Shown in pieces: positions 21,325 through 53,544 of a stretch of 64,000 bases of DNA. The stretch spans positions 310,001 to 374,000 of the forward strand of contig NZ_KB893644.1 of the NCBI RefSeq assembly GCF_000374125.1, given 5' to 3'. Source of the DNA: Niabella aurantiaca DSM 17617. GTDB taxonomy: Bacteria; Bacteroidota; Bacteroidia; Chitinophagales; Chitinophagaceae. Within the stretch, counting starts at the first letter, position 1, and the number at the start of each line of letters is the position of its first letter. The position numbers and the translations under genes were made by a program. Below the pieces are notes generated by a model. The model ran no database searches and had not been told where the DNA came from. It saw nothing but the letters and a program-made list of their open reading frames with translations.

Positions 21325-21345
21325 AAAACGAAATACGATTAACGA
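21325..21345 (+). repeat. heptamer array upstream of uxaC
   Basis: Three consecutive 7-bp units ending in ACGA (first AAAACGA, second AATACGA) lie 15 bp before the uxaC start codon. The spacing is exactly seven bases. The array resembles in period, not in exact sequence, those at 22771-22861 and 53440-53544. Confidence 0.55.
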
Positions 21346-21360
21346 ATAATTTCTTAACAA

Positions 21361-22770
21361 GTGAAACAGTTTTTAGACGATCATTTTCTACTGGAAACAA
21401 AAACGGCAGCACAGTTGTACCACGACTATGCAAAGCAGATGCCGATCATCGATTACCACTGTCATCTTCCGCCGCAGCAGATCGCTGAAGATGCGCAATT
21501 TCAGAATATAACACAGGCCTGGCTGTATGGCGATCATTATAAATGGCGCGCCATGCGTACCAACGGGGTAGATGAAGCTTTTGTAACAGGAACCGCTTCG
21601 GATGAAGAGAAGTTCCTGAGATGGGCGGAAACCGTTCCCTATACCATGCGCAATCCCCTGTACCACTGGACGCACCTCGAACTGCAGCGTTATTTTGATA
21701 TCAGCGAAACACTGGATGCCGGTAGTGGGAAAAGGATCTATGATGCCGCTTCTGAAAAGATCAGCAGCAAGGAATACAGTGTCCGGAACCTGCTCCGTAA
21801 AATGAATGTAAAAGTGGTTTGCACCACGGATGATCCTGTGGACTCACTGGAATTTCATGCAAAAATAAAAGCAGATGGCTTTGAAATTCCCGTATATCCG
21901 GCTTTCCGGCCGGACAATGCCATGAATGTGTCAACGCCGGAGGTGTTTAATGCCTACGTAGCCAGGCTGGAAGCCGCTTCCAATAAGGAGATCCGGGACC
22001 TGGATACCTATCTCCAGGCGCTGAAAAGCCGGCATGATTTCTTTGCCGAAATGGGCTGTTCGGTATCGGATCACGGGTTGGAATACATTCATGCGGCAGA
22101 TTTTACCCAGGCGGGTGTCAGCGCGCTGTTTGATAAGATCTTCGGCGGAAAGGCACTTTCTGCGGAAGAGCAGGAACAGTTCCGTTCTGCAATGCTGGTG
22201 TGGTTTGCGGAATGGGATCACGAAAAAGGCTGGGTACAGCAGTACCACGTAGGCGCCCTGCGGAACAACAATGCACGGCTGCTGGAAAAACTCGGACCGG
22301 ATACCGGCTGGGATTCGATCGGCGATTTTTCACAGGGCAGGATGCTGTCCCGGTTCCTGAACGGGCTGGACAAAAATGACCGGCTGGCCAAAACCATCCT
22401 GTACAATCTCAACCCATCCGACAATGAACTGTTTGCCACGATGACCGGCAACTTCAATGACGGCACGGTGGCCGGAAAAGTACAATGGGGTTCCGGGTGG
22501 TGGTTCCTCGATCAAAAGGACGGGATGATCAGCCAGATGAATGCCCTTTCCAATATGGGACTGATCAGCCGGTTCATCGGGATGCTCACGGATTCGAGGA
22601 GCTTTCTCTCCTTCCCGCGGCACGAATACTTCAGGAGAATATTGTGCAATTTGTTTGGAAACGATATTGAAAATGGCGAACTTCCCGCCGATATCCCCTG
22701 GATCGGGAAAATGATCCAGGATATCTGCTTTAATAATGCAAATGCATATTTTGGATTTGGAGCAAAGTAG
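21361..22770 (+). CDS. uxaC: uronate isomerase
   Basis: UxaC interconverts D-galacturonate and D-tagaturonate (and glucuronate/fructuronate), the first cytoplasmic step for saturated monomers. It has 469 residues and belongs to the amidohydrolase superfamily, with the metal-site motif IIDYHCHLPPQ near residue 27 and conserved VCTTDDPVDSLEFH and DHGLEYIHA. The start is a GTG: an in-frame stop lies two codons upstream, so no longer form is possible. The stop codon is followed at once by a 91-bp array with 7-bp period before kduD. Confidence 0.95.
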   Translation: MKQFLDDHFLLETKTAAQLYHDYAKQMPIIDYHCHLPPQQIAEDAQFQNITQAWLYGDHYKWRAMRTNGVDEAFVTGTASDEEKFLRWAETVPYTMRNPLYHWTHLELQRYFDISETLDAGSGKRIYDAASEKISSKEYSVRNLLRKMNVKVVCTTDDPVDSLEFHAKIKADGFEIPVYPAFRPDNAMNVSTPEVFNAYVARLEAASNKEIRDLDTYLQALKSRHDFFAEMGCSVSDHGLEYIHAADFTQAGVSALFDKIFGGKALSAEEQEQFRSAMLVWFAEWDHEKGWVQQYHVGALRNNNARLLEKLGPDTGWDSIGDFSQGRMLSRFLNGLDKNDRLAKTILYNLNPSDNELFATMTGNFNDGTVAGKVQWGSGWWFLDQKDGMISQMNALSNMGLISRFIGMLTDSRSFLSFPRHEYFRRILCNLFGNDIENGELPADIPWIGKMIQDICFNNANAYFGFGAK

Positions 22771-22861
22771 GTTGATAGTAAGTAGTGAATAGGTATCTGG
22801 TGTCTAAGATCTAAAATCTAAGATCTAACGTCTAATAACAAACAAATAAACGATAAATTAC
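22771..22861 (+). repeat. 13-unit degenerate heptamer array filling the uxaC-kduD spacer
   Basis: Starting at the base after the uxaC stop codon, the whole spacer can be cut into 13 units of seven bases, ending 3 bp before the kduD ATG. Three blocks are seen: three units of GTxxxTA type (e.g. GTTGATA, GTGAATA), six units ending in TCT (e.g. AAGATCT, which occurs twice) and four AA-rich units (e.g. AACAAAT). The AA-rich block shares ACAAAC and TAAACG with the gltB-gltD spacer. Confidence 0.75.
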
Positions 22862-22864
22862 CGC

Positions 22865-23617
22865 ATGTTTGATCTTTCTGGAAAAACAGCCTTAATAACA
22901 GGAGGAAATAAAGGCATTGGAAAAGGGATGGCTATTGGCCTGGCAAAAGCCGGCGCGGACATCATCGTAGCGTCCCGTACAGTGGAAGCAGGGTCTGAAG
23001 TGGAAGCAGCCGTAAAGCAGCTGGGCCGCAGCTTTAAGCACTACAAGCTGGACGCTGCAGACCGCAACAGCGTATATGCGTTGGTAAAGCAGGTGCTGGC
23101 GGAAAATGAACGCATTGATATCCTGGTGAACAATGCCGGAACCATTATGCGGAAACCGGCAGCAGAACATCCGGATGAGTACTGGGATAATGTAATCACC
23201 ATTAACCTGGATACTCCCTTTGTACTGGCACGTGAACTGGGAAAGCATATGATTGAGAAAGGCTCCGGAAAGATCATCTTCACCTGCTCTTTGCTCAGCT
23301 TTCAGGGGGGCATCAATGTGCCGGGGTATGCAGCCAGCAAGGGAGCCCTGAGCAGCCTGGTAAAAGCCCTGGCCAATGAATGGGCCTCCAAAGGGATCAA
23401 TGTAAACGGCATCGCCCCGGGATACATTGCAACCGACAATACACAGGCACTTCGGGAAGACGAAGACCGGAGTAAGTCCATCCTGGACCGGATCCCGGCC
23501 GGCCGCTGGGGGGTGCCGGAAGACTTTGCCGGGCCGGCGGTCTTTCTGGCTTCTGAGGCCGGAAGTTATGTGCACGGCACCATCCTTACCGTGGACGGTG
23601 GCTGGATGGGCCGGTGA
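22865..23617 (+). CDS. kduD: 2-dehydro-3-deoxy-D-gluconate 5-dehydrogenase (KduD)
   Basis: KduD reduces 2,5-diketo-3-deoxygluconate to KDG with NAD(P)H in the branch for unsaturated uronates made by the pectate lyases and GH105. It is a 250-residue short-chain dehydrogenase. The cofactor motif TGGNKGIGKGMA is near residue 11, NNAG near 88, and the catalytic YAASKGAL tyrosine/lysine pair near 158. The name rests on strong family resemblance plus the adjacent kduI. It lies 94 bp after uxaC and 37 bp before kduI; both spacers have heptad periodicity. Confidence 0.93.
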   Translation: MFDLSGKTALITGGNKGIGKGMAIGLAKAGADIIVASRTVEAGSEVEAAVKQLGRSFKHYKLDAADRNSVYALVKQVLAENERIDILVNNAGTIMRKPAAEHPDEYWDNVITINLDTPFVLARELGKHMIEKGSGKIIFTCSLLSFQGGINVPGYAASKGALSSLVKALANEWASKGINVNGIAPGYIATDNTQALREDEDRSKSILDRIPAGRWGVPEDFAGPAVFLASEAGSYVHGTILTVDGGWMGR

Positions 23618-23652
23618 AAAATAAAAATTTCAAATTTTAAATACCGAATAAC
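23618..23652 (+). repeat. AT-rich heptamer array in the kduD-kduI spacer
   Basis: Five 7-bp units with AA at positions 2-3 run from the base after the kduD stop codon to 2 bp before the kduI ATG, for example AAATTTC and AAATTTT. AT-richness makes chance periodicity more likely here than in the other arrays. Confidence 0.45.
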
Positions 23653-23654
23653 AA

Positions 23655-24485
23655 ATGGAGATCAGATACGAACACAGTCCGCAGGAAACAAAGGGAATGA
23701 CCACAGAACAGCTGCGGGAGAGCTTTCTTGTAGAAGATCTGATGAAGACAGATAAGTTAACATTGGTCTACAGCTTCTATGACCGGTTGATCGTAGGTGG
23801 TATAAAACCGGTGGCAAAGACCGTACAGCTGAAAAATGAAAACGAGCTGAAATCGGACTTTTTCCTGCAACGCCGAGAAATGGGGGTCATTAATGTAGGC
23901 GGCAAGGGCGCCGTAACGGTGGACGGCCGGAAATTTCCCCTGGATAAGCTGGACTGCCTGTACATCGGGCGCGGGTCCAAAAAGGTGAGTTTCGGCAGCA
24001 ATGGAAAAAAAGACCCGGCCGTATTCTACATTTTATCGGCACCCGCACATAAAGATTATCCGACCACCAAATATACCAGGGAGCAGGCAGCGCCGGTAAC
24101 GCTGGGTGACATTACTACTTCCAATAAACGGACCATTTATAAATACATTCATGAAGAAGGCGTCCAGAGCTGCCAGCTGGTAATGGGGCTGACGGTGCTG
24201 GAAACCGGAAGCGTATGGAACTCTGTTCCGCCGCATACACATACCCGCCGGACGGAGATCTATTTTTATTTCGATCTTCCGGAAGAGCAGCGCCTGTTCC
24301 ACATGATGGGCCAGCCGCAGCAGACCCGGCACATCATCATGCAAAACCATGACGCCGTTATTTCACCGCCCTGGAGCATGCACTTTGGCTGCGGTACTTC
24401 CAATTATGGCTTTATCTGGGGGATGGCCGGTGAAAACAAACAGTATACGGATATGGATCCGGCGCCGGTACCAACGTTGCTGTAG
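23655..24485 (+). CDS. kduI: 5-keto-4-deoxyuronate isomerase (KduI)
   Basis: KduI converts 4-deoxy-L-threo-5-hexosulose uronate, the spontaneous form of the unsaturated uronate monomer, into 2,5-diketo-3-deoxygluconate for KduD. It has 276 residues and belongs to the cupin superfamily. Zinc-binding residues are expected in PPHTHTRRTEIYFYFDL and in the C-terminal part PPWSMHFGCGTSNYGFIWGM, followed by GENKQYTDMDP, which is highly typical of the family. It is cytoplasmic with no signal peptide. Its presence beside kduD shows that the organism uses lyase products as well as hydrolase products. Confidence 0.95.
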   Translation: MEIRYEHSPQETKGMTTEQLRESFLVEDLMKTDKLTLVYSFYDRLIVGGIKPVAKTVQLKNENELKSDFFLQRREMGVINVGGKGAVTVDGRKFPLDKLDCLYIGRGSKKVSFGSNGKKDPAVFYILSAPAHKDYPTTKYTREQAAPVTLGDITTSNKRTIYKYIHEEGVQSCQLVMGLTVLETGSVWNSVPPHTHTRRTEIYFYFDLPEEQRLFHMMGQPQQTRHIIMQNHDAVISPPWSMHFGCGTSNYGFIWGMAGENKQYTDMDPAPVPTLL

Positions 24486-24506
24486 TCAATGGTCAATAGG
24501 GAATAA
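24486..24506 (+). repeat. heptamer array after kduI
   Basis: Three 7-bp units begin immediately after the kduI stop codon: TCAATGG, TCAATAG and a third with core GGAATA. The same unit type follows rpsR on the other strand (43589-43637) and occurs at 32557-32584. A different, 8-bp-period motif, TTTTCAAA, occurs three times further down at 24554, 24562 and 24578. Confidence 0.6.
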
Positions 24507-24593
24507 CAGGATGGCCGGCGCGGGTAGTAAATGATCAGTACCGGGCCTGCCGGTTTTCAAATTTTCAAATCAACGAATTTTCAAATTAATAAA

Positions 24594-25619
24594 ATGTCTA
24601 AGAAAATAGTTACACTGGGCGAGATCATGTTACGCTTGTCCACCCCCGGTTTTGAACGTTTTGTTCAGGCCGGTTCTTTTGATGTTACTTATGGTGGCGG
24701 CGAAGCCAACGTGGCCGTGGCTCTTTCCAATTATGGACTGAACGGGTATTTTGTTTCAAAAGTTCCGGACAATGCCATTGGTCAGTCGGCCATCAATCAT
24801 CTGCGCCGTTATGGGGTAAATACGGACTTTGTAGCGCGGGGCGGCGACCGCCTGGGGATCTATTTTCTCGAAACCGGAGCCTCCATGCGGGCTTCGCAGG
24901 TGATCTACGACCGCGCCGGCGCCGCCATTGCCGATGCGGATGCAGGTGAATTTGATTTTGATAAGATACTGGAAGGCGCAGACTGGTTCCATACCACCGG
25001 CATTACCCCGGCGCTGAGCGATAAAGCAGCGGCGCTGACCGAAGCGGCGCTGAAAGCAGCAAAAGCAAAGGGGATCACTACCAGCATTGACCTGAACTAC
25101 CGCAAAAAATTATGGAGCAAGGAAAAAGCCCGCGAAGTGATGAGTGAGCTCTGCAAATATGTGGATGTTTGCATTGGCAATGAAGAAGACGCGGAGACCA
25201 CACTGGGCTTTAAAGCGGCTGATACCGATATTACAAAAGGAGAGCTGAACCTGGATGGTTACAAGGATGTGATCCGCCAGATGAAAGAGAAATTCAATTT
25301 TAAATATATAGCGTCTTCACTGCGGGAAAGCTACAGCGCCAGCGATAACGGCTGGAGCGCGCTGGTAAGCGATGGTACGGAATTTTACCATACACGCAAA
25401 TACGATGTACGTATTGTGGACCGGGTGGGAAGCGGCGATAGCTTTGCCAGCGGTCTGATCTATGGCCTGGTAACCGGTATGAGCATGGCCGACGCGGCAG
25501 AGTTTGGTGTGGCTGCTTCTGCATTGAAGCATACCATCCCCGGCGATCTGAACCATGCCACCCTGGGCGATGTAAAAACGCTGATGAAAGGCGATGCCAG
25601 CGGCCGTGTGCAGCGGTAA
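24594..25619 (+). CDS. kdgK: 2-dehydro-3-deoxygluconokinase
   Basis: KdgK phosphorylates KDG to KDPG, joining the two uronate branches. It is a PfkB-family sugar kinase. The N-terminal TLGEIMLRLSTPGFERFVQ and YGGGEANVAVALS are typical. The catalytic signature DRVGSGDSFASGLIYG is near residue 280 and holds the base aspartate. The open frame runs from 24531, but those 21 extra codons fall in repeated TTTTCAAA sequence, and MSKKIVTLGEIML at 24594 is the natural start (341 residues). The KDPG aldolase that uses its product is encoded about 1.6 kb downstream in the same cluster. Confidence 0.93.
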   Translation: MSKKIVTLGEIMLRLSTPGFERFVQAGSFDVTYGGGEANVAVALSNYGLNGYFVSKVPDNAIGQSAINHLRRYGVNTDFVARGGDRLGIYFLETGASMRASQVIYDRAGAAIADADAGEFDFDKILEGADWFHTTGITPALSDKAAALTEAALKAAKAKGITTSIDLNYRKKLWSKEKAREVMSELCKYVDVCIGNEEDAETTLGFKAADTDITKGELNLDGYKDVIRQMKEKFNFKYIASSLRESYSASDNGWSALVSDGTEFYHTRKYDVRIVDRVGSGDSFASGLIYGLVTGMSMADAAEFGVAASALKHTIPGDLNHATLGDVKTLMKGDASGRVQR

Positions 25620-25643
25620 TAGCTGCTCCGGAGAGGCCGCAAC

Positions 25644-26810
25644 ATGATGCAGAAAATAAAAACGATACAACGGTTGCTGCTGATTTTTTTGCTGGGTGTC
25701 CTGGGGCCGTGTACGACCCGGGCACAACAGCCGGTACGGCTTGCAGTGGCCGGGATCACGCACGGGCATAGCGACTGGATCTACAACCGGAAATTGAAGG
25801 GCGATATCGAGATCGTTGGGATTTACGAAACAAATACGGACCGGATCCGTGAATTCCGGGAGCGGTATCATTTACCGCAAGCTCTTTTTTTCTCGGACCT
25901 CGGGAAAATGCTGGATCGGGTAAAACCGGCAGGCGTGATGGCTTTTGGACCCGTTAACGAGCATATTGCAGTGGTGCGGGCAGCTGCGCCGCGCAACATA
26001 CACGTGATGGTGGAAAAGCCCCTGGCCACCAGCTATCGGGATGCCCTGGAAATAGAACGCCTGGCAAAACGCTATGGGATCAAAGTGCTGACGAACTTTG
26101 AAACCTCCTGGTATTCGAGCAACCAGTATGTGCGGAATTGCTACAAAGAGGGAAAGCTGGGCCAGCTGCGTAAAGTTTTGGTGAATGATGGTCATGAGGG
26201 GCCCTGGGCCATGAACCGGCATTTTGTTTCCTGGCTTACGGACCCGGTGAAGAACGGAGGTGGCGCATTGACGGATTTTGGCTGTTATGGTGCCAACCTG
26301 ATGACCTGGCTGATGGACGGCCGGCGACCGGTTTCGGTAACGGCGGTAACACATCAGAACCGGCCGGACAGGTACCCGAAGGTGGAAGACGAAGCTACGA
26401 TCATCCTGCAGTATCCACAGGTACAATGTGTGATCCAGGCATCGTGGAGCTGGACCTTCAGCCGTAAGGATATGGCAGTGTACGGCACCAAAGGATACGC
26501 CATCGCCGTGGACCGGACAATGGTAAAAACCCGTTTGGAGGGGAAGCTCCCGGAAACGACACAAACCCTGGAGCCGCGTCCGGCGCCTTTTGAGGATCCT
26601 TTTGCGGTGTTTGCCGGTGTGATACAGGGGGTATTGAAACAGGAGCCCAATGATCTGTATGAACTGCCGGTTAATGTAACGGTTGTTGAGATCCTGGATG
26701 CAGCCCGTGCATCCGCAAAGAGCGGGAAAACAATTTATTTAAAATCCCGGTTGGGCCTGCGTGAACCCGCAATGCCGGAACAACCGAATAAAAAATTATA
26801 TGGTAATTGA
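25644..26810 (+). CDS. Gfo/Idh/MocA-family oxidoreductase with signal peptide
   Basis: This is a 388-residue NAD(P)-dependent oxidoreductase-like protein. The Rossmann start RLAVAGITHGHSDWI, the EKPLA motif (near residue 121) and the central GGGALTDFGCYGANL are typical of the family. An N-terminal hydrophobic stretch LLLIFLLGVLG followed by TTRAQQP looks like a Sec signal peptide, so the protein is probably periplasmic, unlike its cytoplasmic neighbours. The cysteine before TTR is preceded by proline, so it is a poor lipobox. Several Bacteroidota secrete such proteins in glycan loci, and some family members are glycoside hydrolases or reductases. The substrate is unknown. Its last 11 bases overlap the next gene. 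Confidence 0.83.
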   Translation: MMQKIKTIQRLLLIFLLGVLGPCTTRAQQPVRLAVAGITHGHSDWIYNRKLKGDIEIVGIYETNTDRIREFRERYHLPQALFFSDLGKMLDRVKPAGVMAFGPVNEHIAVVRAAAPRNIHVMVEKPLATSYRDALEIERLAKRYGIKVLTNFETSWYSSNQYVRNCYKEGKLGQLRKVLVNDGHEGPWAMNRHFVSWLTDPVKNGGGALTDFGCYGANLMTWLMDGRRPVSVTAVTHQNRPDRYPKVEDEATIILQYPQVQCVIQASWSWTFSRKDMAVYGTKGYAIAVDRTMVKTRLEGKLPETTQTLEPRPAPFEDPFAVFAGVIQGVLKQEPNDLYELPVNVTVVEILDAARASAKSGKTIYLKSRLGLREPAMPEQPNKKLYGN

Positions 26811-27252
26811 TACGGTAGAGAATGCATTGCGCTATGAGTTGTTGCATCCATTATTTAAAAAAGCATTTGACTATATACGCCAGACAGACCTGGCCGGTGC
26901 TGCTTCCGGCACCTATGTGGTAGCGGAAGATGCGGTTAAAGCAATCGTTTCCGAAGCGCCCGGAAAAAAGCAGGAGGCCTCGCTGGAAAAATTCGAATGT
27001 CACAACCGGTTTATCGATATCCAGTATGTGATCAGCGGCACGGAGCAGATGGGCTGGAAACCACGCCGGGACTGTGTTACACCCAATGGGGACTATAGCC
27101 CGGAAAAAGATGTGCAGTTCTACCGGGATGCGCCGGATACCTTTTTCACATTGACCCCGGGACAGTTTGTGATCTTCTTTCCGGAAGACGTGCATGCACC
27201 CATGATCAGTGATGGTGTGATTAAAAAATTAGTAATGAAAATAAAATTGTAG
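26800..27252 (+). CDS. YhcH/YjgK/YiaL-family cupin-like protein
   Basis: This 150-residue protein belongs to the YhcH/YiaL (DUF386) family. The conserved regions are FECHNRFIDIQYVISGTEQM and GQFVIFFPEDVHAPMI, which would hold the metal-binding residues of the cupin-like barrel. Family members are linked to sugar acid and sialic acid pathways, often with anomerase or isomerase roles, but the reaction is not settled. Here it probably acts on a uronate-derived intermediate. The start is ATG 26800 (MVIDTVENAL), which overlaps the end of the oxidoreductase gene. A longer open frame from 26761 would add 13 unlikely residues. The aldolase gene begins 2 bp after its stop. Confidence 0.85.
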   Translation: MVIDTVENALRYELLHPLFKKAFDYIRQTDLAGAASGTYVVAEDAVKAIVSEAPGKKQEASLEKFECHNRFIDIQYVISGTEQMGWKPRRDCVTPNGDYSPEKDVQFYRDAPDTFFTLTPGQFVIFFPEDVHAPMISDGVIKKLVMKIKL

Positions 27253-27254
27253 GA

Positions 27255-27917
27255 ATGGCAGTACAACAAACCATTAAAACCATTATTGAGCAGGGGATGC
27301 TGCCGCTGTATTTTAACGCGGATGAGACCGTGAGCGTAGAAGTATTGCGCGCGCTGCACAAAGCAGGCGTGCGGGCAGTAGAATATACCAATCGTGGTGA
27401 AGCGGCATTTGATAATTTCAAAAAGCTGGTGGCGGTCCGCGACGAGGAAATGCAGGGGCTGCTGCTGGGCATTGGCACGGTCAAGAACCTGCAGGATGCA
27501 GAAAAATACCTGGAAGCGGGAGCCGATTTTTTTGTAAGCCCGGGTTTTGTTCCGGAAATAGCGGCTTTTGCGGCAGAAAAGGATGTTTTTTATGCCCCGG
27601 GCTGTATGACCCCTACGGAGATCATCGCTGCAGAAAATGCAGGCGTGCAATTCATTAAACTGTTCCCGGGCGATATGCTGGGGCCAAAATACCTGAGCAC
27701 GATCAAAGATATTTTTCCGAAATTATTGTTCATGCCCACCGGCGGGGTAGATGCCACCGAGGAAAGCATCGGCGGCTGGTTTAAAGCCGGCGTTTGTGCC
27801 GTGGGCATGGGCAGTAAACTGGTAAGCAAACAATTAATGGCAGCCAAAGATTATACTGCCATTGAGCAGATGACGGCTGCGGTTCTAAACACGATACAAT
27901 CAATAAAAAGTAAATAA
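27255..27917 (+). CDS. eda: KDPG aldolase (bifunctional KDPG/KHG aldolase family)
   Basis: The enzyme cleaves 2-keto-3-deoxy-6-phosphogluconate to pyruvate and glyceraldehyde-3-phosphate, the last step of the pathway encoded here. It is a class I aldolase of 220 residues. The Schiff-base lysine should be the one in VQFIKLFPGD (near residue 136). GIGTVKNLQDAEKYL and FMPTGGVDATEESIGGW are also typical. The product comes from kdgK in the same operon. Its stop codon overlaps the start of the transporter gene in TAATG. Confidence 0.93.
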   Translation: MAVQQTIKTIIEQGMLPLYFNADETVSVEVLRALHKAGVRAVEYTNRGEAAFDNFKKLVAVRDEEMQGLLLGIGTVKNLQDAEKYLEAGADFFVSPGFVPEIAAFAAEKDVFYAPGCMTPTEIIAAENAGVQFIKLFPGDMLGPKYLSTIKDIFPKLLFMPTGGVDATEESIGGWFKAGVCAVGMGSKLVSKQLMAAKDYTAIEQMTAAVLNTIQSIKSK

Positions 27918-29287: not shown

Positions 29288-29317
29288 ACACCTAAAAAAT
29301 AACATGATTCATAACAG

Positions 29318-29347
29318 ACTCCCGGTTCACTTTCCGGGAGTTTTTTT
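29318..29347 (+). terminator. rho-independent terminator after exuT
   Basis: The stem ACTCCCGG (29318-29325) pairs with CCGGGAGT (29334-29341) around an 8-nt loop and is followed directly by seven T. It ends the pectin/uronate gene cluster. Confidence 0.9.
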
Positions 29348-29449: not shown

Positions 29450-29459
29450 CAAAGATTTT

Positions 29460-32360: not shown

Positions 32361-32711
32361 TTTTGATATTTTAAGTAACTGATTCACAGTGTGTTTAATT
32401 GTTTTCTGCTTATTTAGCAAAAAATAAGCCGAATCATCCCTTATAGGACGTAAAAATAGGTTAAAGGGTGGTAGCCACACAATTTTAATTGTTTTTACAG
32501 GAGAAGTTTGAGGAAGTTATAATTTGAAAATGTGGAAACAGGTATTGAGTGCTTCGGGGAATGTTAATCATCAATGGTTAATGGTCAGCAGATGTTGTTT
32601 CCTTATGTAATATCACCGGGGCAGCTATTCACAGATCTGCAGACGTCCGCTGCATCCTGTGAATATCCGTGGAATCCGCGGGGCAATCTACAGACGTCCA
32701 ACCTTAAGCAA
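32361..32711. other. 351-bp spacer with heptamer array and hairpin
   Basis: No gene is seen. The part next to the TPR gene is AT-rich and probably contains its promoter, although no perfect TAnnTTTG was found. A heptamer array lies at 32557-32584. A hairpin at 32628-32663 pairs TTCACAG with CTGTGAA and, inside it, TGCAG with CTGCA. The octamer AGACGTCC occurs at both ends of the last 70 bp. Confidence 0.6.
32557..32584 (+). repeat. heptamer array of the xxAATxx type
   Basis: Four consecutive 7-bp units: GGGAATG, TTAATCA, then TCAATGG and TTAATGG. The third unit is identical to the first unit after kduI at 24486. It is not directly beside a stop or start codon, unlike most other arrays in the window. 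Confidence 0.55.
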
Positions 32712-43032: not shown

Positions 43033-43479
43033 TTATTCCGCCACCACTTCGAATTCAACTTCGGTGCTGTGACCTCCGCCAAAATCGATGGTTGCCTTAT
43101 AAGTTCCCAGTTCTTTGATATCGTCGGTGATATGGATCTTTTTACGGTCAATTTCATAACCTTTTTGCTCGCGGATCGCCCGGCTCAGCTGCAGGTTGGT
43201 AACGCTTCCAAAGATCTTACCGCTGGTTCCTGTTTTCGCACCCAGTTTCAGGGGGGCTGCGTTCAGTTTCGCAATAACGCTGTTGATCTCAGCCAGCATG
43301 GCTGCTTCTTTTTTGCGCGATTGTTTCAGACGTTCTTCCAGCTGTTTTTTGTTGCTGTTGTTGTTTTCAACAGCTAATTTACGGGGGATCAGATAGTTAC
43401 GGGCATATCCGTTTTTGACGTTCACTACCTCGTTGGCAGCGCCCAGATTATCCACATCCTGGATCAGGATTATTTCCAT
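43033..43479 (-). CDS. rplI: 50S ribosomal protein L9
   Basis: L9 is a structural protein of the large ribosomal subunit. The N-terminal signature MEIILIQDVDNLGAANEVVN and GYARNYLIPRKLA are diagnostic. A long central helix (KQLEERLKQSRKKEAAMLAE) links to the C-terminal domain, which ends with GTYKATIDFGGGHSTEVEFE. Its length of 148 residues is normal. It is the last gene of the rpsF-rpsR-rplI cluster, but 158 bp separate it from rpsR. This gap holds the heptamer array 43589-43637 and is longer than usual for this operon. Confidence 0.97.
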   Translation of the reverse strand: MEIILIQDVDNLGAANEVVNVKNGYARNYLIPRKLAVENNNSNKKQLEERLKQSRKKEAAMLAEINSVIAKLNAAPLKLGAKTGTSGKIFGSVTNLQLSRAIREQKGYEIDRKKIHITDDIKELGTYKATIDFGGGHSTEVEFEVVAE

Positions 43480-43588
43480 TGTTTTTGCTGCCTGCTTACC
43501 GCAGGCGGGTTTTAGCTCCCGGAGCCCAATCGGCGATTGTGACTGTCTGGCGCCGCAGCGCCATTAGGGATGGTTACTAATTTAAAGT

Positions 43589-43637
43589 GAACAGGCAATA
43601 GGGAATGGTCAATGGACTATTCCCTATTGCGCATTGC
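43589..43637 (-). repeat. inverted heptamer half-arrays between rpsR and rplI
   Basis: On the minus strand, seven 7-bp units start immediately after the rpsR stop codon. The first three are of xxAATxx type (GCAATGC, GCAATAG, then a GGAATA unit); the next ones are the complementary type with ATT or GTT. As a result CAATAGGGAAT (43596-43606) and ATTCCCTATTG (43619-43629) form a perfect 11-bp stem with a 12-nt loop. No T-run follows. Confidence 0.75.
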
Positions 43638-43901
43638 CTATTTTAAAAGATCGGTTACGTAAGGTAACAAAGCCATTTGACGGGCTTTTTTCACCGCGTC
43701 AGAAACCCGGCGCTGAAATTTCAGGCTGTTTCCGGTTAAGCGGCGGGGCAGCAATTTACCCTGCTCGTTCAGGAATTTTTTCAGGAACTCTACGTCTTTA
43801 TAATCTACGTAGCGGATGCCATATTTTTTAAAACGACAAAACTTTTTAACGCGCTTGTCGGTCTTAATGGCCGTCAGGTATTTGATTTCGTTTTTTGCCA
43901 T
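43638..43901 (-). CDS. rpsR: 30S ribosomal protein S18
   Basis: S18 is a small-subunit ribosomal protein that pairs with S6. It has 87 residues with the typical core [35 protein letters not shown] and a C-terminal [11 protein letters not shown]. It starts 3 bp after rpsF on the minus strand. No zinc-binding cysteine cluster is seen, only a single cysteine in KKFCRF. After its stop codon comes the heptamer array, not a direct junction to rplI. Confidence 0.97.
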
Positions 43902-46506: not shown

Positions 46507-46548
46507 TGCGGATTCTGCGGGCATAACCTGTTCCGGCAGGGTATTTTT

Positions 46549-47511: not shown

Positions 47512-47637
47512 TGTCAATGCATAAATTATGGGCAAAATAAGGCTAAATCCTTCAAATGAGCATGATTTAACACACTCATTTTTAATTGAAAATAAACAAG
47601 AAACAGGGAAAAATTTATTATTTTTTTTGGTTAAAAA

Positions 47638-47668
47638 TTTGTTTATTTAAGAAATGGCTCTAAATTTG
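47638..47668 (+). promoter_or_regulatory. Bacteroidota consensus promoter of the ompA-like gene
   Basis: TTTG (47638-47641), 19 bp, then TAAATTTG (47661-47668): a perfect match to the TTTG / TAnnTTTG consensus of this phylum. The ATG is 43 bp further on. It is embedded in AT-rich sequence, consistent with high expression. Confidence 0.85.
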
Positions 47669-47711
47669 CTATTCATTTTAGGAAATCGTTTTTAAATCTT
47701 AATCCTTAGTT

Positions 47712-49355
47712 ATGACAAGCAAAAAGTACACATTATTGGCAGGTCTAGGCTGCCTGATTGCGTCTACAGGGTTTGCCCAAGTAAGCCCTTCGCATCCGTA
47801 CACAGCGCCTCATCCGCTGTACGGTACTTATTCTGTTACTGACTCTAATTATTATTCTGGCAAAAATCTGCAACAGCATAATGATTTTATGGTTGGTACA
47901 AGCGATTATCCCGCTAAACCGAAAGACATGTGGGAACTCGGTATTAAAGGGGGATCTTTCACTGTAAATGGAGATGTAAACTCCCGTTTTGGAAAATCCT
48001 TTGGTTTTGGTGCACACATCCGTAAGTCATTGGGACACGTAATGTCCTTAAGACTGGAGTATGTTTATGGTAGCGCTACCGGTTTGAACTGGAGACCTTC
48101 CATGAGCTATGTTCACGCCCCTGCAGACAATCCCTGGAATGCTGCAGGATATGCCGGAGCGCCTGTTTACTACAACTACAAAACAAAAGCACAGGATCTG
48201 TCACTCCAGGCTTTGTTTAACTTGGGAAACATCCGTTTCTACAAAGCACAGACCGGAGCTACCATTTATGCGTTGGCTGGTATTGGTGTAAACACCTTCC
48301 ACTCAACAGTTGATGCTAAAAACGGCGGTACTGCATACACAAATTTCCCTGCCGGTGATCAAACAAACACAAGCCGCAAGGACATGATGAAAACATTGAA
48401 AGATGTTTTTGATGATGAGTATGAATCTGCTGCTGAAGTAGATCCCAGCGTTAAATGGAGCAAAATGTTTGCCGGCTATATCACTCCTTCTGCTACTGCA
48501 GGTGCTGGTATCGCTTTCAGACTGTCTCCCCGCGTAAACTTAGCTGTTGAAGATCGTGTGATCTACAACCTGCATGCTTCTGATCTGTTGGACGGAGATC
48601 GTTGGGCTGAGCAAGGTACATTAAGCCCCGATAAAGATTTCTTCAACTACCTGACTGTAGGTCTGAACTTTAACCTGGGTAACAAATCCAGAAGAGTTGA
48701 GCCGCTGTACTGGCTGAACCCGCTGAACTATGCCTACGGTGAACTGCGTCGCGTTCCCGAGATCGTTCTTCCTGATTCTGATGGCGATGGCGTAACAGAT
48801 CAGTTTGACCAAGAGCAAACACCTGCTGGTTGCCCGGTTGATACACATGGTGTAAGCCGCGATACAGATGGTGACGGTGTTCCTGATTGTAAAGATAAAG
48901 AGCTGATCACTCCTACCTACTGCCAGCCGGTAGATGCTGATGGTGTTGGTAAATGCCCTTGTCCGGAAGGTTGTGGCGTTAAAGTAGATGATTGCGCCAC
49001 TTTGCTGGGTGCTTTACCGAGCGTTACTTTCAAAGCTAATTCCAATACGCTTTCTTCTGATGCTGCCGCTTCTTTAGCTGTTGTAGCTTCTAAACTGAGA
49101 GCAAATCCGAACTGTAAAGTAGTTGTAGTTGGCTATTGCGCTGCTACTAAACGTCAACAGCAATTAAGCTGGGATCATGTAAACAAAGTGATCACACACT
49201 TACAGGAAAAAGAAGGTATCAGCGGAGACAGATTCATCTTCTCTTCTGGTCAGGAAGGTGGAGATTGCAACACCGTAGACATCCGTGCAGCTGCACCGGG
49301 TGAAGACGGACCGAACACAGTTGCTCCTCCTCATCCAAATCTTCGCAAAAAATAG
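47712..49355 (+). CDS. OmpA-family outer-membrane protein
   Basis: This is a 547-residue outer-membrane protein linking the membrane to peptidoglycan. The signal peptide ends IASTGFAQ. An N-terminal beta-barrel (about 75-340) starts WELGIKGGSFTVNGDV. Two thrombospondin type 3 calcium repeats follow, DSDGDGVTDQFDQEQTPAGC and DTDGDGVPDCKDKE. The C-terminal OmpA domain (about 430-530, VTFKANSNTLSSDAAASLAV) is somewhat divergent: the usual NxxLSxxRA motif is replaced by TKRQQQLSWDHVNKVI. Codon use is richer in A/T-ending codons than in most neighbours, as in highly expressed genes. It has its own promoter and terminator. Confidence 0.92.
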   Translation: MTSKKYTLLAGLGCLIASTGFAQVSPSHPYTAPHPLYGTYSVTDSNYYSGKNLQQHNDFMVGTSDYPAKPKDMWELGIKGGSFTVNGDVNSRFGKSFGFGAHIRKSLGHVMSLRLEYVYGSATGLNWRPSMSYVHAPADNPWNAAGYAGAPVYYNYKTKAQDLSLQALFNLGNIRFYKAQTGATIYALAGIGVNTFHSTVDAKNGGTAYTNFPAGDQTNTSRKDMMKTLKDVFDDEYESAAEVDPSVKWSKMFAGYITPSATAGAGIAFRLSPRVNLAVEDRVIYNLHASDLLDGDRWAEQGTLSPDKDFFNYLTVGLNFNLGNKSRRVEPLYWLNPLNYAYGELRRVPEIVLPDSDGDGVTDQFDQEQTPAGCPVDTHGVSRDTDGDGVPDCKDKELITPTYCQPVDADGVGKCPCPEGCGVKVDDCATLLGALPSVTFKANSNTLSSDAAASLAVVASKLRANPNCKVVVVGYCAATKRQQQLSWDHVNKVITHLQEKEGISGDRFIFSSGQEGGDCNTVDIRAAAPGEDGPNTVAPPHPNLRKK

Positions 49356-49378
49356 TAACTTTTTGCTATAACAGATAT

Positions 49379-49407
49379 AAACCCTTCCCGTTTGGGAAGG
49401 GTTTTTT
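49379..49407 (+). terminator. rho-independent terminator after ompA-like gene
   Basis: AAACCCTTCCC (49379-49389) pairs with GGGAAGGGTTT (49394-49404) around GTTT, followed by T. It lies 24 bp after the stop codon. Confidence 0.92.
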
Positions 49408-49644
49408 GTATTTGGGGCCTGCCAGGGTGTTGCTGATGGCGGGCAGGTCTTTGGTCTGTGCCGGGCTTAATGACGGACGACTTGCATAAATCGCCCCGCT
49501 CCCTTAACAGGAGCCCGGTTGAATGCAATTGTGAAAAATCAGTTTGTGAAAAAATGAAAAATTTACAAACCGGAAGTTCACAGGGTGTACCTGAAAAAGT
49601 GTAATCGAGTACAGGCTTAGATTTTATTGAGAAGAAGGTATAAA

Positions 49645-49686
49645 AATGCCTCACATTGGAGCAAAATTTGCTTTAAGTGAGGCATT
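49645..49686 (+). promoter_or_regulatory. hairpin ahead of the transposase start
   Basis: AATGCCTCAC (49645-49654) pairs perfectly with GTGAGGCATT (49677-49686), 14 bp before the likely ATG. A smaller palindrome (AGCAAA / TTTGCT) lies inside. Such a structure could block read-through transcription or translation from outside promoters, as in several IS families. Confidence 0.6.
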
Positions 49687-49700
49687 CTTATTCTTTGTCT

Positions 49701-51035
49701 ATGTCAAAAATAGTTCTTTTCGATTATCCATCTTTATTAGATCAGCGATTTTTACAAACAGATTTAGGGCGGCTTTATCAGAGCATTCCCTTTGATGAGT
49801 TAGCGGCGGTCATTGCTGCGCCTCGTCATGCAAAGAGTGGCCGGGGCTGTAAGCCGTGGTTTGATGTCAAAGGAGGGATTGCGTTGGAGATTTTAAAGCA
49901 TTATCTTAATGTAAGTGATGCGATGCTTATTGAACGTATCAATACAGACTGGAGCCTGCAACTTTTTTGTGGCATCCGGCTAAGGCCCGATGAGATGATA
50001 AAAGATACGGATCTTCCCAGCGCCTGGCGGAGCTATCTGGGCAAGTACCTGGATATAAGCAAGGTACAGGACATCCTGGCCCGACACTGGAAGCCTTACA
50101 TGAACGATACCCATATCAGCAGTGAAGATGCTACCTGCTATGAAAGCGGTATTGCCTTTCCTACGCCGGTAAAACTGGTGTGGCAGTGTTGCAACAAAAC
50201 TTATTTATTGTATAATCATCTTCGCAGGCAAGCGAAGCTTCGTGGCAGCCGTTGCAACTATGAAAAGTTCAGGCTATTGTTTTTGCACTACCAGAAAACC
50301 AAAAAGAAAACTAAACGCGCAGAAAAAAAGTTGCTGAAAACACTGCTGAAATTTTTACTGCGATTGTTGCAGCTAATAGAAGAGCTGAGCCAACAACAGC
50401 CAGTAAAGCTATCTTTAAAGCAAGCTGCTGAAATACGCACCATTATTAGCGTGTATGCTCAACAACATGACAAAGTATATGGTAAGACAGATAAAATACA
50501 AGACCGTATAGTATCACTTAGCAAACCCTATATTCGTCCCATTGTCAGGGGTAAAGAAGCAAAAGCGGTAGAATTTGGTGCCAAGGTAAACAAGTTGCAG
50601 GTGGACGGTATCAGTTTTATTGAGCATTTTAGTTATGATGCCTTTAACGAAGGTACAAGGCTTAAAGACTGTGTATGGCTGCATAAGCGACTCTTCGGTA
50701 AATGCACGCACCATAGCGCCGATAAGATCTATGCCACCAATGCCAACCGCAGCTATTGCACAAAGCAAAAAATCGTTACCAATTTTACCCCCAAGGGCAG
50801 GCAAAAGACCGCTCATATAGAGCAAAGCAAAACCATGCGTAGCCTGCTCAACAAACAACGGGCAACCCGGTTGGAAGGAAGCTTTGGTAATGAGAAGAAT
50901 CATTATTTGCTCCAAAAGGTAAATGCCCGCAATGCTATTACCGAAAAGTGTTGGATATTCTTTGGTATCATGACGGCTAACGCATCGATCATTACCAATC
51001 GAAGGCAGGCTTCAATAAAAGCGGCGGCGGCTTAA
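49701..51035 (+). CDS. DDE transposase of the IS1182/IS5-like group
   Basis: This 444-residue transposase inserts and excises the element. It has an N-terminal DUF772-like domain (about 5-95, SLLDQRFLQTDLGRLYQSI). The catalytic DDE residues are probably in SSEDATCYESG (near residue 150), the aspartate of HHSADKIYATNANRSYC, and the glutamate of RLEGSFGNEKNHYLLQKV. A basic insertion (QKTKKKTKRAEKKLLKTLLK) lies between the first and second catalytic residues. The longer frame starts with GTG at 49677 inside the upstream hairpin, so ATG 49701 (MSKIVLFDYPSLL) is preferred. It appears intact and may be active. Confidence 0.88.
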   Translation: MSKIVLFDYPSLLDQRFLQTDLGRLYQSIPFDELAAVIAAPRHAKSGRGCKPWFDVKGGIALEILKHYLNVSDAMLIERINTDWSLQLFCGIRLRPDEMIKDTDLPSAWRSYLGKYLDISKVQDILARHWKPYMNDTHISSEDATCYESGIAFPTPVKLVWQCCNKTYLLYNHLRRQAKLRGSRCNYEKFRLLFLHYQKTKKKTKRAEKKLLKTLLKFLLRLLQLIEELSQQQPVKLSLKQAAEIRTIISVYAQQHDKVYGKTDKIQDRIVSLSKPYIRPIVRGKEAKAVEFGAKVNKLQVDGISFIEHFSYDAFNEGTRLKDCVWLHKRLFGKCTHHSADKIYATNANRSYCTKQKIVTNFTPKGRQKTAHIEQSKTMRSLLNKQRATRLEGSFGNEKNHYLLQKVNARNAITEKCWIFFGIMTANASIITNRRQASIKAAAA

Positions 51036-51441
51036 CCCCCAGCATCACTAAATAAGGAGCGCTGTTTTCAGTGCAGGCAAACCTATTGCCTAAAATGGAA
51101 AAAGCAAGGTAAAATTACAGCTCGTTAACCGTTGGAATGAGCAAACAGTCTATTTTTAATCTACGAATTTATCGTAGATGATGAAACTCCTTAATTTTCA
51201 GGAACACCCTTCACAAAGTTGTGAAAAGTTGAGTCGTGAAATTTTAGGAATTTTACAAACTGGTTTTTCACAAACAGGCGGTCCCGGTTTTGGGGCAAAA
51301 AGCCGCAGCATACCCTGAAAGCAATAGGGAGACGAAGTGGATTTTTCAGATACGCTGAGTAAACGACATTGATTCATCCTTGTGTGTCATGCGGATATGA
51401 AGGGGAGTTTCTAAAGCAGCATACCAGATTTTTTTATTTCA

Positions 51442-51506
51442 GGGCATCATAATGGCAGCGGGGTGTATGGCATCTCATGTTGAGCTCCGTAGGAGCGACC
51501 TGTTAT
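51442..51506 (+). repeat. dispersed repeat module 1, copy A
   Basis: About 65 bp containing GAGCTCCGTAGGAGCGACCT. The reverse complement occurs at 58909-58973 with few differences. The core is a hairpin-like AGCTCCGTAGGAGC. Confidence 0.8.
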
Positions 51507-51570
51507 TTCAGCTATTTTCCGGAATAATATCGTTTTTGATACCGGTTCATTATCAGTGACCAATAAAAAA

Positions 51571-51892
51571 GAAATTGTATCAAAAGTCGCTTTACAGCGT
51601 GTTGTCATTCTGAACTTGTTTCAGAATCTATTGATAGATAACTATTATTAGATGCCGAAACAAGTTGCCAATGACAGATTGCTTAATGTATTGACAATGA
51701 ATCAGACTTTAGTCATGCCGGACAATGTCTTGCTGAACTTGTTTCAGCATCTATTCGGCATCTATGCACGATTTAGGCAGATCCTGAAACAAGTTCAGGA
51801 TGACCCAAAGCAGATTTGTCATTGCGCCATTGATTTTGTGTTCACAAATGGAAAACCCGGCATGACAAATGAAAAACTCTTGATACAACCTC
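51571..51892 (+). repeat. MITE/REP-like element with terminal inverted repeats, copy A
   Basis: The 322-bp element is bounded by 17-bp imperfect inverted repeats: GAAATTGTATCAAAAGT at the left and, reading inward from the right, GAGGTTGTATCAAGAGT (14 of 17). It contains three perfect small hairpins: TTCTGAA/TTCAGAA (51608-51626), TGCTGAA/TTCAGCA (51731-51749) and ATCCTGAA/TTCAGGAT (51781-51801). It has no coding capacity. Most of it is repeated in reverse at 58993-59239, and its right end alone at 44777-44805. It ends 28 bp before the gltD stop codon. Confidence 0.82.
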
Positions 51893-51920
51893 TTTTATCT
51901 TTATAAATACTATCGGTGTA

Positions 51921-53426
51921 TTATTCAAAAGACATCAGTACCGATTGTTCCTTTGCTTCCAGTATGGAATGCCCCATCAGGAATTCGTCTACTTTCCGGG
52001 CGCATTCACGTCCTTCGCTGATGGCCCATACCACCAGGCTTTGTCCCCTGCGCATATCGCCGGCGGAGAATATCTTGGGAATATTGGTTTTATATTCCTG
52101 CTCACTTGCTTTTACATTGCCCCGGTTATCCAGCTCCACATCCAGCTCCTCCAGCATGCCCTGGTGCTGCGGGTGTACAAAGCCCATTGCCAGTAAGGCC
52201 AGTTCGCAGGGCAATTCCCGTTCGGAACCGGGGATCTCTGTAAACTGGGCAGGCTTCCCGGGTGCCGGGGTTTTCCATTCCAGGTCTACCACCACCAGCG
52301 ATTTCAGATGACCATTTTCATCTCCTTTGAATTCTTTGGTGGCAATAGACCAGTGCCGGTTGGCGCCTTCCTCGTGGCTGGTCGTTGTTTTCAGCAGCAT
52401 CGGATAAGAAGGCCAGGGCATGGCTTCCGTCCGTTCTTTCGGGGGCATGGGCAACAGTTCAAACTGTGTTACGGAAACAGCCTTATGCCGGTTGCTGGTG
52501 CCTACGCAGTCGCTGCCGGTGTCGCCTCCGCCAATTACCACCACATTTTTACCTGTGGCCAGCACTTCTTCCGTTAAGATATTGCTTTCGATGTCTTTAT
52601 GGGCCAGGAAGTCTTTTCCGTCAACCCGTTTATTATTTTGTTTCAGGAAGTCCATAGCAAAATGAACCCCGTTCAGCTCCCTTCCGGGGATGGGGAGGTT
52701 GCGGGGAACCGTGCTGCCGCCGCACAGGACCACTGCATCATAATTGCGCAGCAGATCATGTATGCTGATATTTTTGCCCACGTGTGCATGACAGCGGAAC
52801 TCTATGCCTTCTTCCTGCATGACCTCGATCCGGCGGTCTATTACCCATTTTTCCAGCTTAAAATCAGGGATCCCGTACCGCAGCAGGCCGCCCGGTTTTT
52901 CATCCCGTTCGAAGACCGTTACACTATGACCCGCATAGTTTAGCTGGGCAGCGGCAGCAAGTCCGGAAGGGCCACTGCCGACAACGGCCACTTTTTTACC
53001 GGTGCGGATATTGGGCCCTTTTTTGGAAACAAAGCCCCGTTCGAAGGCGATCTCAATAATATGTTTTTCGATCTCTTCAATAGCAACCGGAGGCTGGTTA
53101 ATGCCCAGCACGCAGGCCGATTCGCAGGGTGCCGGACAGATACGCCCCGTAAATTCCGGGAAGTTGTTGGTGGAGGTCAGAATTTCGTATGCCTCTTTAT
53201 ATTCTTTGCGGTAAATAGCATCATTGAACTCCGGGATCACATTTCCCAGCGGGCAACCGCTGTGACAAAATGGAACTCCGCAGTCCATACATCTTGCGGC
53301 CTGGTTGTTCAATTGATCTTCCGGAAATAATGCTACGAATTCTTTATAGTGCTGAACGCGTTCTGCTACTGTTTTCTTTTGGGGAGTCTCTCTCGAAAAC
53401 TCTAAAAATCCTGTTGGTTTACCCAT
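51921..53426 (-). CDS. gltD: glutamate synthase small subunit
   Basis: GltD supplies electrons from NADPH to the large subunit for glutamate synthesis from glutamine and 2-oxoglutarate. It has 501 residues. The N-terminal part has the cysteine motifs for [4Fe-4S] clusters, ARCMDCGVPFCHSGCPLGN and CPAPCESACVLGI. FAD binding is at VAVVGSGPSGLAAAAQL and NADPH binding at VVVIGGGDTGSDCVGTS. The C-terminus includes PKIFSAGDMRRGQSLVVWAI. It follows gltB on the same strand after a 123-bp spacer that contains inverted heptamer arrays. Confidence 0.95.
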   Translation of the reverse strand: MGKPTGFLEFSRETPQKKTVAERVQHYKEFVALFPEDQLNNQAARCMDCGVPFCHSGCPLGNVIPEFNDAIYRKEYKEAYEILTSTNNFPEFTGRICPAPCESACVLGINQPPVAIEEIEKHIIEIAFERGFVSKKGPNIRTGKKVAVVGSGPSGLAAAAQLNYAGHSVTVFERDEKPGGLLRYGIPDFKLEKWVIDRRIEVMQEEGIEFRCHAHVGKNISIHDLLRNYDAVVLCGGSTVPRNLPIPGRELNGVHFAMDFLKQNNKRVDGKDFLAHKDIESNILTEEVLATGKNVVVIGGGDTGSDCVGTSNRHKAVSVTQFELLPMPPKERTEAMPWPSYPMLLKTTTSHEEGANRHWSIATKEFKGDENGHLKSLVVVDLEWKTPAPGKPAQFTEIPGSERELPCELALLAMGFVHPQHQGMLEELDVELDNRGNVKASEQEYKTNIPKIFSAGDMRRGQSLVVWAISEGRECARKVDEFLMGHSILEAKEQSVLMSFE

Positions 53427-53439
53427 TTTCTTATTTAAC

Positions 53440-53544
53440 GTTTATTGTTTGTCGTTTCTCGTTTCGCCCAGAAAGAGCGGTTGGTTGTTTTAAGCTAAAT
53501 ATTATCCGGGAATAACATCAAACCCAAAACAATAAACCAGAAAC
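53440..53544 (-). repeat. inverted heptamer arrays in the gltB-gltD spacer
   Basis: On the plus strand, four units of GTTTxxx (53440-53467, first GTTTATT) face five units of xxxAAxC type (53510-53544, e.g. AATAAAC, CAGAAAC) across 42 bp. The two arrays are complementary: GTTTATTGTTT (53440-53450) is the exact reverse complement of 53527-53537. In the gltBD mRNA the arrays could fold into one long imperfect stem between the two genes. Confidence 0.75.

Follow-up and report, generated by a model that had tools for sequence, protein, structure and literature searches.

Many of the intergenic spacers of Niabella aurantiaca DSM 17617 and of its relatives carry worn heptad repeats, arrays of degenerate units that recur every seven bases. 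The analysis started from a stretch of 64,000 nucleotides (nt) of contig NZ_KB893644.1 (positions 310,001 to 374,000; hereafter the window, whose own numbering is used below), in which an earlier note had described seven such spacers as a strictly 7-bp-periodic family. We consider, with a probability of about 65%, that these arrays are the product of duplication and deletion in 7-bp steps in non-coding DNA, accompanied by substitution and by some copying between arrays.

The sample of this genome amounted to 836 kb of 5.93 Mb and was not random, some stretches having been chosen for matches to the TCTAA unit type. Genes were called with a custom script rather than a published caller, and their starts are approximate; spacers shorter than 20 nt were left out (shorter than 15 nt in the comparison of orthologues), and the detector keeps one best run per spacer and halts at gene borders. 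At a score of at least 10, lag 7 was found in 47 of the 543 spacers compared to 4.2 expected from shuffles, and the multiples of seven were raised too: lag 14 (35 spacers, 3.0 expected), lag 21 (28, 3.4) and lag 28 (12, 2.0). The values for the other lags were (observed/expected): 4 (5/2.4), 5 (4/3.4), 6 (4/2.6), 8 (15/2.4), 9 (5/1.2), 10 (5/1.8), 11 (11/1.2), 12 (8/2.0), 13 (0/0.8), 15 (11/1.4), 16 (8/1.8) and 22 (6/1.6). With the threshold at 14, there were 28 spacers at lag 7 (0.4 expected), five at lag 8 and four at lag 11. Period 7 and its multiples outrank the other lags tested, and lags 8, 11, 12 and 15 are raised less; the observation of the earlier note holds, on firmer ground genome-wide than in the window. 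After removal of the seven stretches holding TCTAA triplets, the window among them, lag 7 was still found in 26 of 433 spacers (1.4 expected) and lag 8 in 10 (1.4 expected), so that the excess over dinucleotide shuffles proposed as a check by the earlier note is present. In a 464-kb sample (300 spacers), the z values were 8.3 at lag 7, 6.5 at lag 14 and 5.2 at lag 21; lags 3, 4 and 6 were raised as well (13.1, 5.6 and 5.3), probably in part due to uncalled coding DNA. The period is nearly confined to spacers: coding DNA cut into pieces of spacer size showed no lag-7 excess (5 of 1500 pieces, 3 for codon shuffles).

The excess is also clear in three other samples from the genus and weaker in a fourth and a fifth: lag-7 arrays were found in 11 of 142, 12 of 99 and 3 of 66 spacers of three members (0.6, 0.4 and 0.4 expected), in 15 of 129 spacers of genome G014 (2.0 expected), whose sample was picked for repeats, and in 4 of 94 spacers of G003 (0.8 expected), where little signal was seen and no array reached a score of 14. 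The G014 genome holds 125 matches to TCTAANN triplets, and it also carries two very long heptad arrays, of 376 nt (L084, 17019-17394) and 333 nt (L085, 4227-4559). In fifteen stretches taken from further genera within the family and order, 11 of 164 spacers carried such arrays (1.3 expected), concentrated in a few genomes, two of the 11 being the same sequence within one stretch; stretches L167-L170 entered no count.

Within the arrays, similarity decays in phase. The mean identity over 28 long arrays was 0.702, 0.657, 0.605, 0.547, 0.515 and 0.478 at lags 7, 14, 21, 28, 35 and 42, and 0.25-0.30 at lags one base off; the two very long G014 arrays were left out, and the lag-7 score of the detector favours lag 7 over lags of 14 and more. 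A phase held over six units, together with the fact that neighbouring units are the most alike, argues for local tandem duplication with substitution. As a class the copies are imperfect (identity 0.70 at lag 7), with a few near-perfect cases such as four copies of CTGAATA; the arrays here are A/T-rich, and some of them, that at 22776 included, change unit type along their length. Unit dialects recur within the genome and differ between species. The consensus of 20 of the 47 arrays has an exact partner elsewhere in the sample, rotation and strand allowed (4.9 ± 2.8 under the null), and 27 have none, which bears out the claims that unit types are shared between distant sites and recur elsewhere in the genome. 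The unit TCAATGG, put forward as a shared marker, was rejected: its 19 occurrences in the window are not enriched in spacers.

Orthologous spacers were aligned over a 40-kb syntenic block in eight members of the genus. Where the spacer of this genome is heptadic (p ≤ 0.05), 23 of 40 orthologues are heptadic, compared to 1 of 55 for the other spacers (Fisher p 2.5e-10), a count that comes from related and hence not independent species and includes two spacers that in this genome have p values of 0.033 and 0.040. The spacer between uxaC and a dehydrogenase gene carries lineage-specific units although the proteins are 84-93% identical, with the exception of G013 and G010, which agree. Upstream of gltD, 14 of 17 spacers of the genus are heptadic at p ≤ 0.02, with ATCAGAA-like and AAATCTC-like units as common types, and in 11 of these the end of the array lies no more than 7 nt from the start codon, which is uncertain in one of them, G008. 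Whole-heptad differences were found in the gltB-gltD spacer (34 vs. 41 nt in G009 and G012; 36 vs. 64 nt in G005 and G001) and in the orthologue of the 24486 spacer, where G013 and G010 differ by exactly one clean heptad of 7 nt. Among gaps of at least 4 nt, 8 of the 29 located in 11 heptadic spacers were multiples of seven, compared to 15 of the 156 in 74 others (Fisher p 0.013), a test that covers three of the six alignments made and two species pairs. Judged from the alignments, orthologous spacers keep the heptad period while the sequence frequently turns over.

Array segments are at times also copied between loci. On contig C23, two inverted array copies lie about 1.1 kb apart and are 94% identical over 52 nt (89% over 65 nt; L128, 18944-19012, and L129, 88-151), the homology ending at about 65 nt. 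They flank a gene in a polysaccharide-type cluster, the sole open reading frame (ORF) between them, which was considered as a mobile gene and rejected because it resembles a GDP-mannose dehydratase and not a transposase. The copies match a TCTAANN array in a 23S-5S ribosomal RNA (rRNA) spacer of contig C13 (L125, 19466-19594; rRNA assigned by Rfam) with 94.9-97.4% identity over 39 nt, and further matches of 95% lie on C16, a contig of 12.8 kb, and in the first 5.5 kb of contigs C24 and C25; these presumably mark further rRNA operons. The idea of the arrays as recombination sites gains limited support from this stretch of 39-52 nt, shared at 94-97% by the 23S-5S spacer and the two inverted copies.

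The placement of the arrays follows that of spacers in general: 32 of the 47 lie between co-directional (tandem) genes, six between convergent and five between divergent genes and four at stretch ends, matching the background of all 543 spacers (371, 69, 70 and 33); the gltD array was counted as far from a start in this tally, gltD having been called too short. Among 61 tandem-spacer arrays from six genomes, 14 start within 2 nt of a stop codon (5.5 expected) and 18 end within 7 nt of a start codon (10.8 expected), in keeping with the remark that several arrays begin after a stop or run up to a start; these figures are inflated in part, since the detector halts at the border and arrays entering genes add to them. 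By eye, the stop triplet shares the register of the units in several of the 14 near-stop arrays (TGA ahead of GATTTGA units, TAG ahead of TGAATAG units), and a few arrays continue into the gene end. This suggests that, where an array begins after a stop, the gene would end at the first in-frame stop that the array supplies.

One dialect extends far beyond the genus. When named genomes were scanned for four units of the type TCTAANR, at least 118 loci with 123 arrays were obtained, a set selected on one dialect and with several loci per genome, hence not independent. Among the 118 loci listed, to which the following counts refer, 58 are cyanobacterial, 46 belong to Bacteroidota and 14 are other by record title, and none of the 123 arrays overlaps a called ORF by more than 20 nt. 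Between co-directional genes, 55 arrays are sense and 28 antisense; an ORF starts within 60 nt downstream in 60 cases on the TCTAA strand and in 17 on the other, and in 26 of these 60 near-start arrays the start lies at a gap of 4 mod 7 (p 5e-8), at which the start codon occupies the last three places of a TCTAANR unit. For 80 of the loci, the counts are 39 sense and 18 antisense, 41 vs. 7 near a start and 16 of 41 at a gap of 4 mod 7. Of these 80 loci, 72 are cyanobacterial or belong to Bacteroidota, and their remaining spacers show lag 7 in 57 of 206 (1.0 expected) and in 30 of 125 (2.3 expected), in genomes that were chosen for having heptads. Across 198 genomes of the phylum, a three-unit TCTAA pattern was found at period 7 in 13 genomes and at the control periods 6 and 8 in one and nine, eight of these nine belonging to one family; period 7 is thus not universal for the dialect. 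This genome gave 31, 0 and 0 matches at periods 7, 6 and 8. The reversed TCTAA pattern is an unclean control, being itself a heptad dialect in some genomes.

At the spacer between rpsR and rplI, a hairpin persists across the genus. In many species the rpsR stop is immediately followed by heptads in forward orientation and then by the reverse complement of these. Lag 7 reaches p ≤ 0.01 in this spacer in 10 of 17 genomes, and the segment from the rpsR stop to a conserved element further on folds with z ≤ -3.2 in 15 of 17, the hairpin missing in G011 (no fold) and G014 (2 nt left). The 15 hairpin sequences fall into five mutually dissimilar groups by linkage at z > 5 (seven at z > 8), three of which (G002; G003; the pair G016 and G008) have no significant heptads, so that the hairpin rather than the heptad seems to be kept. 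Arrays in general fold no better than background, with z < -2 in 5 of 59 tandem arrays (two over-long ones of the 61 omitted) compared to 13 of 80 background spacers, which makes this site special; hairpins are not supported as a general property of the arrays, and the proposal that the arrays are RNA elements stands at this one site. The adjoining element (43510-43580, minus strand) is strongly conserved in 15 of 17 genomes (TTAGTAACC..CCCTAA..GACAGTCACAATC..GATTGGG..CTAAA), with compensatory changes in its apical stem and no Rfam match, and is a candidate structured leader of rplI. At the gathering score, Rfam gave no match in the window, and at 43400-43700 all matches were below the threshold.

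The notion of relics of a heptamer-adding process fits these data best, given the phase-locked decay of identity and the gains and losses of whole heptads between species. We infer that units would most likely be duplicated or deleted by slippage or by a switch of template as the DNA is replicated, and that the arrays also undergo ordinary substitution and, now and then, the copying of segments between sites. Mismatch repair is described as good on loops of 1-3 bp and poor on longer ones (Huang & Mrázek 2014, PMC4060949), and Mrázek 2007, as related by MacGregor 2015 (PMC4679880) and Rehm 2015 (PMC4692102), suggested the contact length of the polymerase as a reason why 7 is preferred to 6 or 8. 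Coding DNA would be purged of such steps because 7 is not a multiple of 3, and arrays would survive mainly in spacers, up to the first and last codon; with units that include a stop triplet, the own stop of the gene could be one of them. Fast turnover at many sites would leave orthologous spacers with the period and often without the sequence. Some sites were probably co-opted, as an unstructured A/T-rich leader before starts in organisms without Shine-Dalgarno sites or, at rpsR, as an intercistronic hairpin.

Several observations weigh against this reading. The strand and start-codon bias of the TCTAA arrays, strong across phyla among the loci listed, is not explained by a blind process. The step is not strictly seven, since lags 8, 11, 12 and 15 also exceed expectation in the spacers and genome G229 has 57 period-8 TCTAA matches compared to 28 at period 7. 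In 16 of 50 arrays, variation is uneven over the seven unit columns (p < 0.05), a pattern not expected of plain mutation unless duplication spreads the mutations. The test on gap lengths is a modest one; with a fourth alignment added, gaps that are multiples of seven number 9 of 31 in heptadic spacers compared to 17 of 172 in others. Two spacers with palindrome-like heptads, as judged by eye, show 97-98% identity between species, contrary to fast turnover: the orthologue of 22771-22864 upstream of the dehydrogenase gene in G013 and G010, and a spacer of G009 and G012 (L087, 12690-12765), pairs whose background identity in aligned DNA is 83.5% and 89%; on this comparison, strong constraint or recent exchange is suggested. 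Finally, slippage is deduced indirectly, from comparisons between species.

An unlikely alternative is that the arrays are under selection as cis elements whose 7-nt pitch is recognized, in RNA or DNA, by the ribosome or by a partner that binds repeats, and that they act chiefly as translation-initiation leaders ahead of start codons. It would account for the 18 of 61 tandem arrays that end close to a start, for the strand and register of the TCTAANR arrays near starts (60 vs. 17; 26 of 60) and for the persistence of heptads at orthologous positions, and it agrees with the lack of a Shine-Dalgarno excess in this genome (25 of 391 starts, 24 in one shuffle). Against it stand the high diversity of unit sequences between sites and species, the match of array spacer types with the background, the array in a 23S-5S rRNA spacer, and the decay of identity along arrays instead of one consensus being held; moreover, 11 of the 16 fixed-register cases (80 of the 118 loci listed) are cyanobacterial, some sharing a genome and not independent. 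The initiation determinants A-3, A-6, A-12 and A-13 are described by Baez et al. 2019 (PMC6847099), and register with them was rejected: 15 near-start arrays are out of register, with A at -3 and -13 at 0.20. A leader function may exist, fitting the start-codon bias and the lack of a Shine-Dalgarno excess, yet it fails this adenine test. Also unlikely is a reading in which a dedicated or polymerase-intrinsic activity of 7-nt step would keep rebuilding the spacers, regulatory features such as initiation leaders and intercistronic hairpins being kept as form (period, strand, fold) without sequence, and the rpsR-rplI hairpin being remade from different heptads in each lineage.

Spread of the arrays through horizontal transfer, or through a heptad-inserting or heptad-copying mobile element, is improbable: the presence of TCTAANR arrays in both Cyanobacteria and Bacteroidota (58 and 46 of the 118 loci listed) and the 39-52 nt shared by distant loci, two inverted copies about 1.1 kb apart included, speak for it, and the nature of the ORF between these copies, the end of their homology at about 65 nt, the 27 consensuses of 47 without an exact partner and the orthologous whole-heptad differences, which need no outside insertion, speak against it. 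We give very little credit to the idea that the 7-nt pitch was kept since a heptad bearing a stop yields stops in three frames and insulates genes. Stops do exceed those of dinucleotide shuffles (sense, 264 vs. 222 ± 8; antisense, 265 vs. 238 ± 9), a null that ignores repetition, several stop codons lie in array register, and near-start arrays hold 117 sense stops vs. 94 ± 11 under column permutation (p 0.018); over all 61 arrays the same permutation gives 247 vs. 242 ± 19 (p 0.43), near-stop and remaining arrays show nothing, and all three sense frames are stopped in 31 arrays vs. 25.6 ± 2.9, so that the idea is mostly refuted by the permutation over all arrays. Chance low-complexity, A/T-rich sequence without real periodicity, to which the three window sites that are marginal or near chance would conform, is refuted by the shuffle controls and has next to no probability: lag 7 stands at 47 of 543 vs. 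4.2 while lags 5, 6 and 13 are near the null, the excess remains without the TCTAA-triplet stretches (26 of 433 vs. 1.4), and it recurs in other members of the genus.

The sites of the window are taken one by one here. Lag-7 runs in its 33 spacers were scored against 300 dinucleotide shuffles each, and the features are collected in Table 1; UxaC and KduI were identified from Pfam matches, and ribosomal proteins S18 and L9 and the GltB- and GltD-type domains were assigned via Pfam.

Table 1 Features of the window, with lag-7 scores and the shuffles (of 300) or p values that go with them.
Positions	Strand	Feature	Score and other values
21325-21349	+	short degenerate heptad run AAAACGA AATACGA TTAACGA, upstream of uxaC	score 8, reached by 0/300; p=0.007 in a second shuffle test
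22776-22857	+	strong degenerate array, TAGTRAG-like passing to RTCTAAN units, between uxaC and short-chain dehydrogenase gene	score 23, matched by 0/300; fold z 0.19
23618-23654	+	A-rich AAATNNN array, from dehydrogenase stop to kduI-family start	score 10 over 23618-23642, p=0.017
24486-24505	+	three-unit run TCAATGG TCAATAG GGAATAA, directly 3' of kduI-family stop	score 7, p=0.01; p=0.040 in the second test
24554-24587	+	period-8 array (TTTTCAAA), ahead of the next start codon, neighbour of the 24486 run	found by Tandem Repeats Finder; lag 8 forms a weaker class genome-wide and in some further genomes of the phylum
32557-32584	-	claimed run between DUF1015 gene and next minus-strand gene; not clearly above chance	32566-32585: score 7, p=0.087; p=0.033 in the second test
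43590-43637	-	palindromic heptad array directly 3' of rpsR stop; hairpin at about 43595-43630	score 15, 0/300 as high; fold z -4.3
53434-53465	-	heptad array GAAACGA GAAACGA CAAACAA TAAACGT, just upstream of gltD start	score 15, 0/300 as high
53466-53549	-	remainder of gltB-gltD spacer, with sequence pairing to the array	fold of 53427-53549, z -4.6

Of the seven spacers that had been claimed as 7-bp-periodic, three are firm (22776, 43590 and 53434), one is probable (21325), two are marginal when taken alone with 33 spacers tested (23618 and 24486), and that at 32557 is near chance by the shuffles and inseparable from it. Orthologues back the sites at 22771, 23618, 24486, 43589 and 53440. The orthologous spacer is heptadic in three of eight species for 21325, in six of eight for 22776, mostly with dissimilar sequences, and in three of eight for 32557; upstream of the kduI-family gene, AAATNNN-type heptads reach the ATG in orthologues and p ≤ 0.05 is attained in seven of the eight other species; and for 24486 it is attained in four of eight, with G013, G007 and G010 carrying T[GC]AAT[AG]G units. 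The TCTAA units of the 22776 array, which shows no RNA fold above background, are found again elsewhere in the genome, and many orthologous gltB-gltD spacers are shorter and fold weakly. At score 30, Tandem Repeats Finder reports period 7 at only two of the seven sites (22803-22828 and 53434-53464) among its 29 rows for the window, and, pooled over just the window, lag 7 exceeds expectation by little (z 2.0).

Heptamer repeats as a kind are already known, and the arrays look like a fast-changing variant of the heptamers of cyanobacteria and other bacteria. The earlier note knew of no described function for such arrays in Bacteroidota; heptamers are already published there, likewise without a tested function as far as these sources go (PMC4679880, PMC4060949). 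The short tandemly repeated repetitive (STRR) sequences of cyanobacteria are, according to a Nostoc paper (PMC2670836), usually 7-bp repeats capable of forming hairpins, present between hupS and hupL, genes of one operon; roles in transcript stability or translational coupling are suggested for them, and their function is given as unknown. The arrays share with the STRR described there the 7-bp units in intergenic DNA; unlike them, many units here are strongly degenerate and drift along the array, with many dialects per genome, and the rpsR-rplI hairpin persists across species in unrelated sequence groups. As regards the hairpin capacity of the STRR, folds were observed in 15 of 17 genomes at this spacer and, among tandem arrays, in the 5 of 59 (13 of 80 background spacers) given above.

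TAACTGA direct repeats are reported from Beggiatoaceae, 15 Cyanobacteria and five Bacteroidetes (MacGregor 2015, PMC4679880), mostly intergenic and in several genomes forward-oriented just upstream of starts; that paper also describes few Shine-Dalgarno sites and, for sister strains of Cyanothece, indels that mostly go in steps of 7 nt. Of the 17 genus genomes, 4 contain TAACTGA doublets (15 matches in G012), and the search for the doublet gave no match in this genome. The forward, near-start orientation recurs here as a statistical bias only, which many arrays do not show, and the arrays differ from the repeats of that paper in being degenerate and of many unit types. In the survey of Huang & Mrázek 2014 (PMC4060949), heptanucleotide repeats (7n3) are over-represented in Bacteroidetes genera, its Table 2 giving Bacteroidetes 0.75 for 7n3 and 0 for 6n3 and 8n3, and Cyanobacteria 0 for all three. 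Period 7 is over-represented here too; the survey, as its class is defined, counts perfect copies (three or more), and the degenerate arrays here would fail. Like the heptads described here, the GGGNATC heptamers reported from Xanthomonas and Nostoc (Rehm 2015, PMC4692102) occupy spacers, with the same flanking genes in relatives and much variation in length and sequence; they are presented as G-rich and quadruplex-forming, whereas the arrays here are A/T-rich. In the open-access literature searched, no account of degenerate heptad arrays came up for this group, although one may exist, and a look through PMC3126725 for terms on repeats gave no hit; neither their many-dialect, position-conserved form nor an rpsR-rplI hairpin kept without its sequence was found there.

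If the duplication and deletion reading is true, a noticeable share of the spacers of these bacteria would owe its form to a single mutational step and not to selection acting gene by gene, and motif finding, promoter prediction and phylogenetic footprinting would be misled by it. The kduI, gltD and rpsR-rplI sites would then be natural places to test why seven is favoured, a question raised in the heptamer literature, and whether arrays act as leaders in the absence of Shine-Dalgarno sites.

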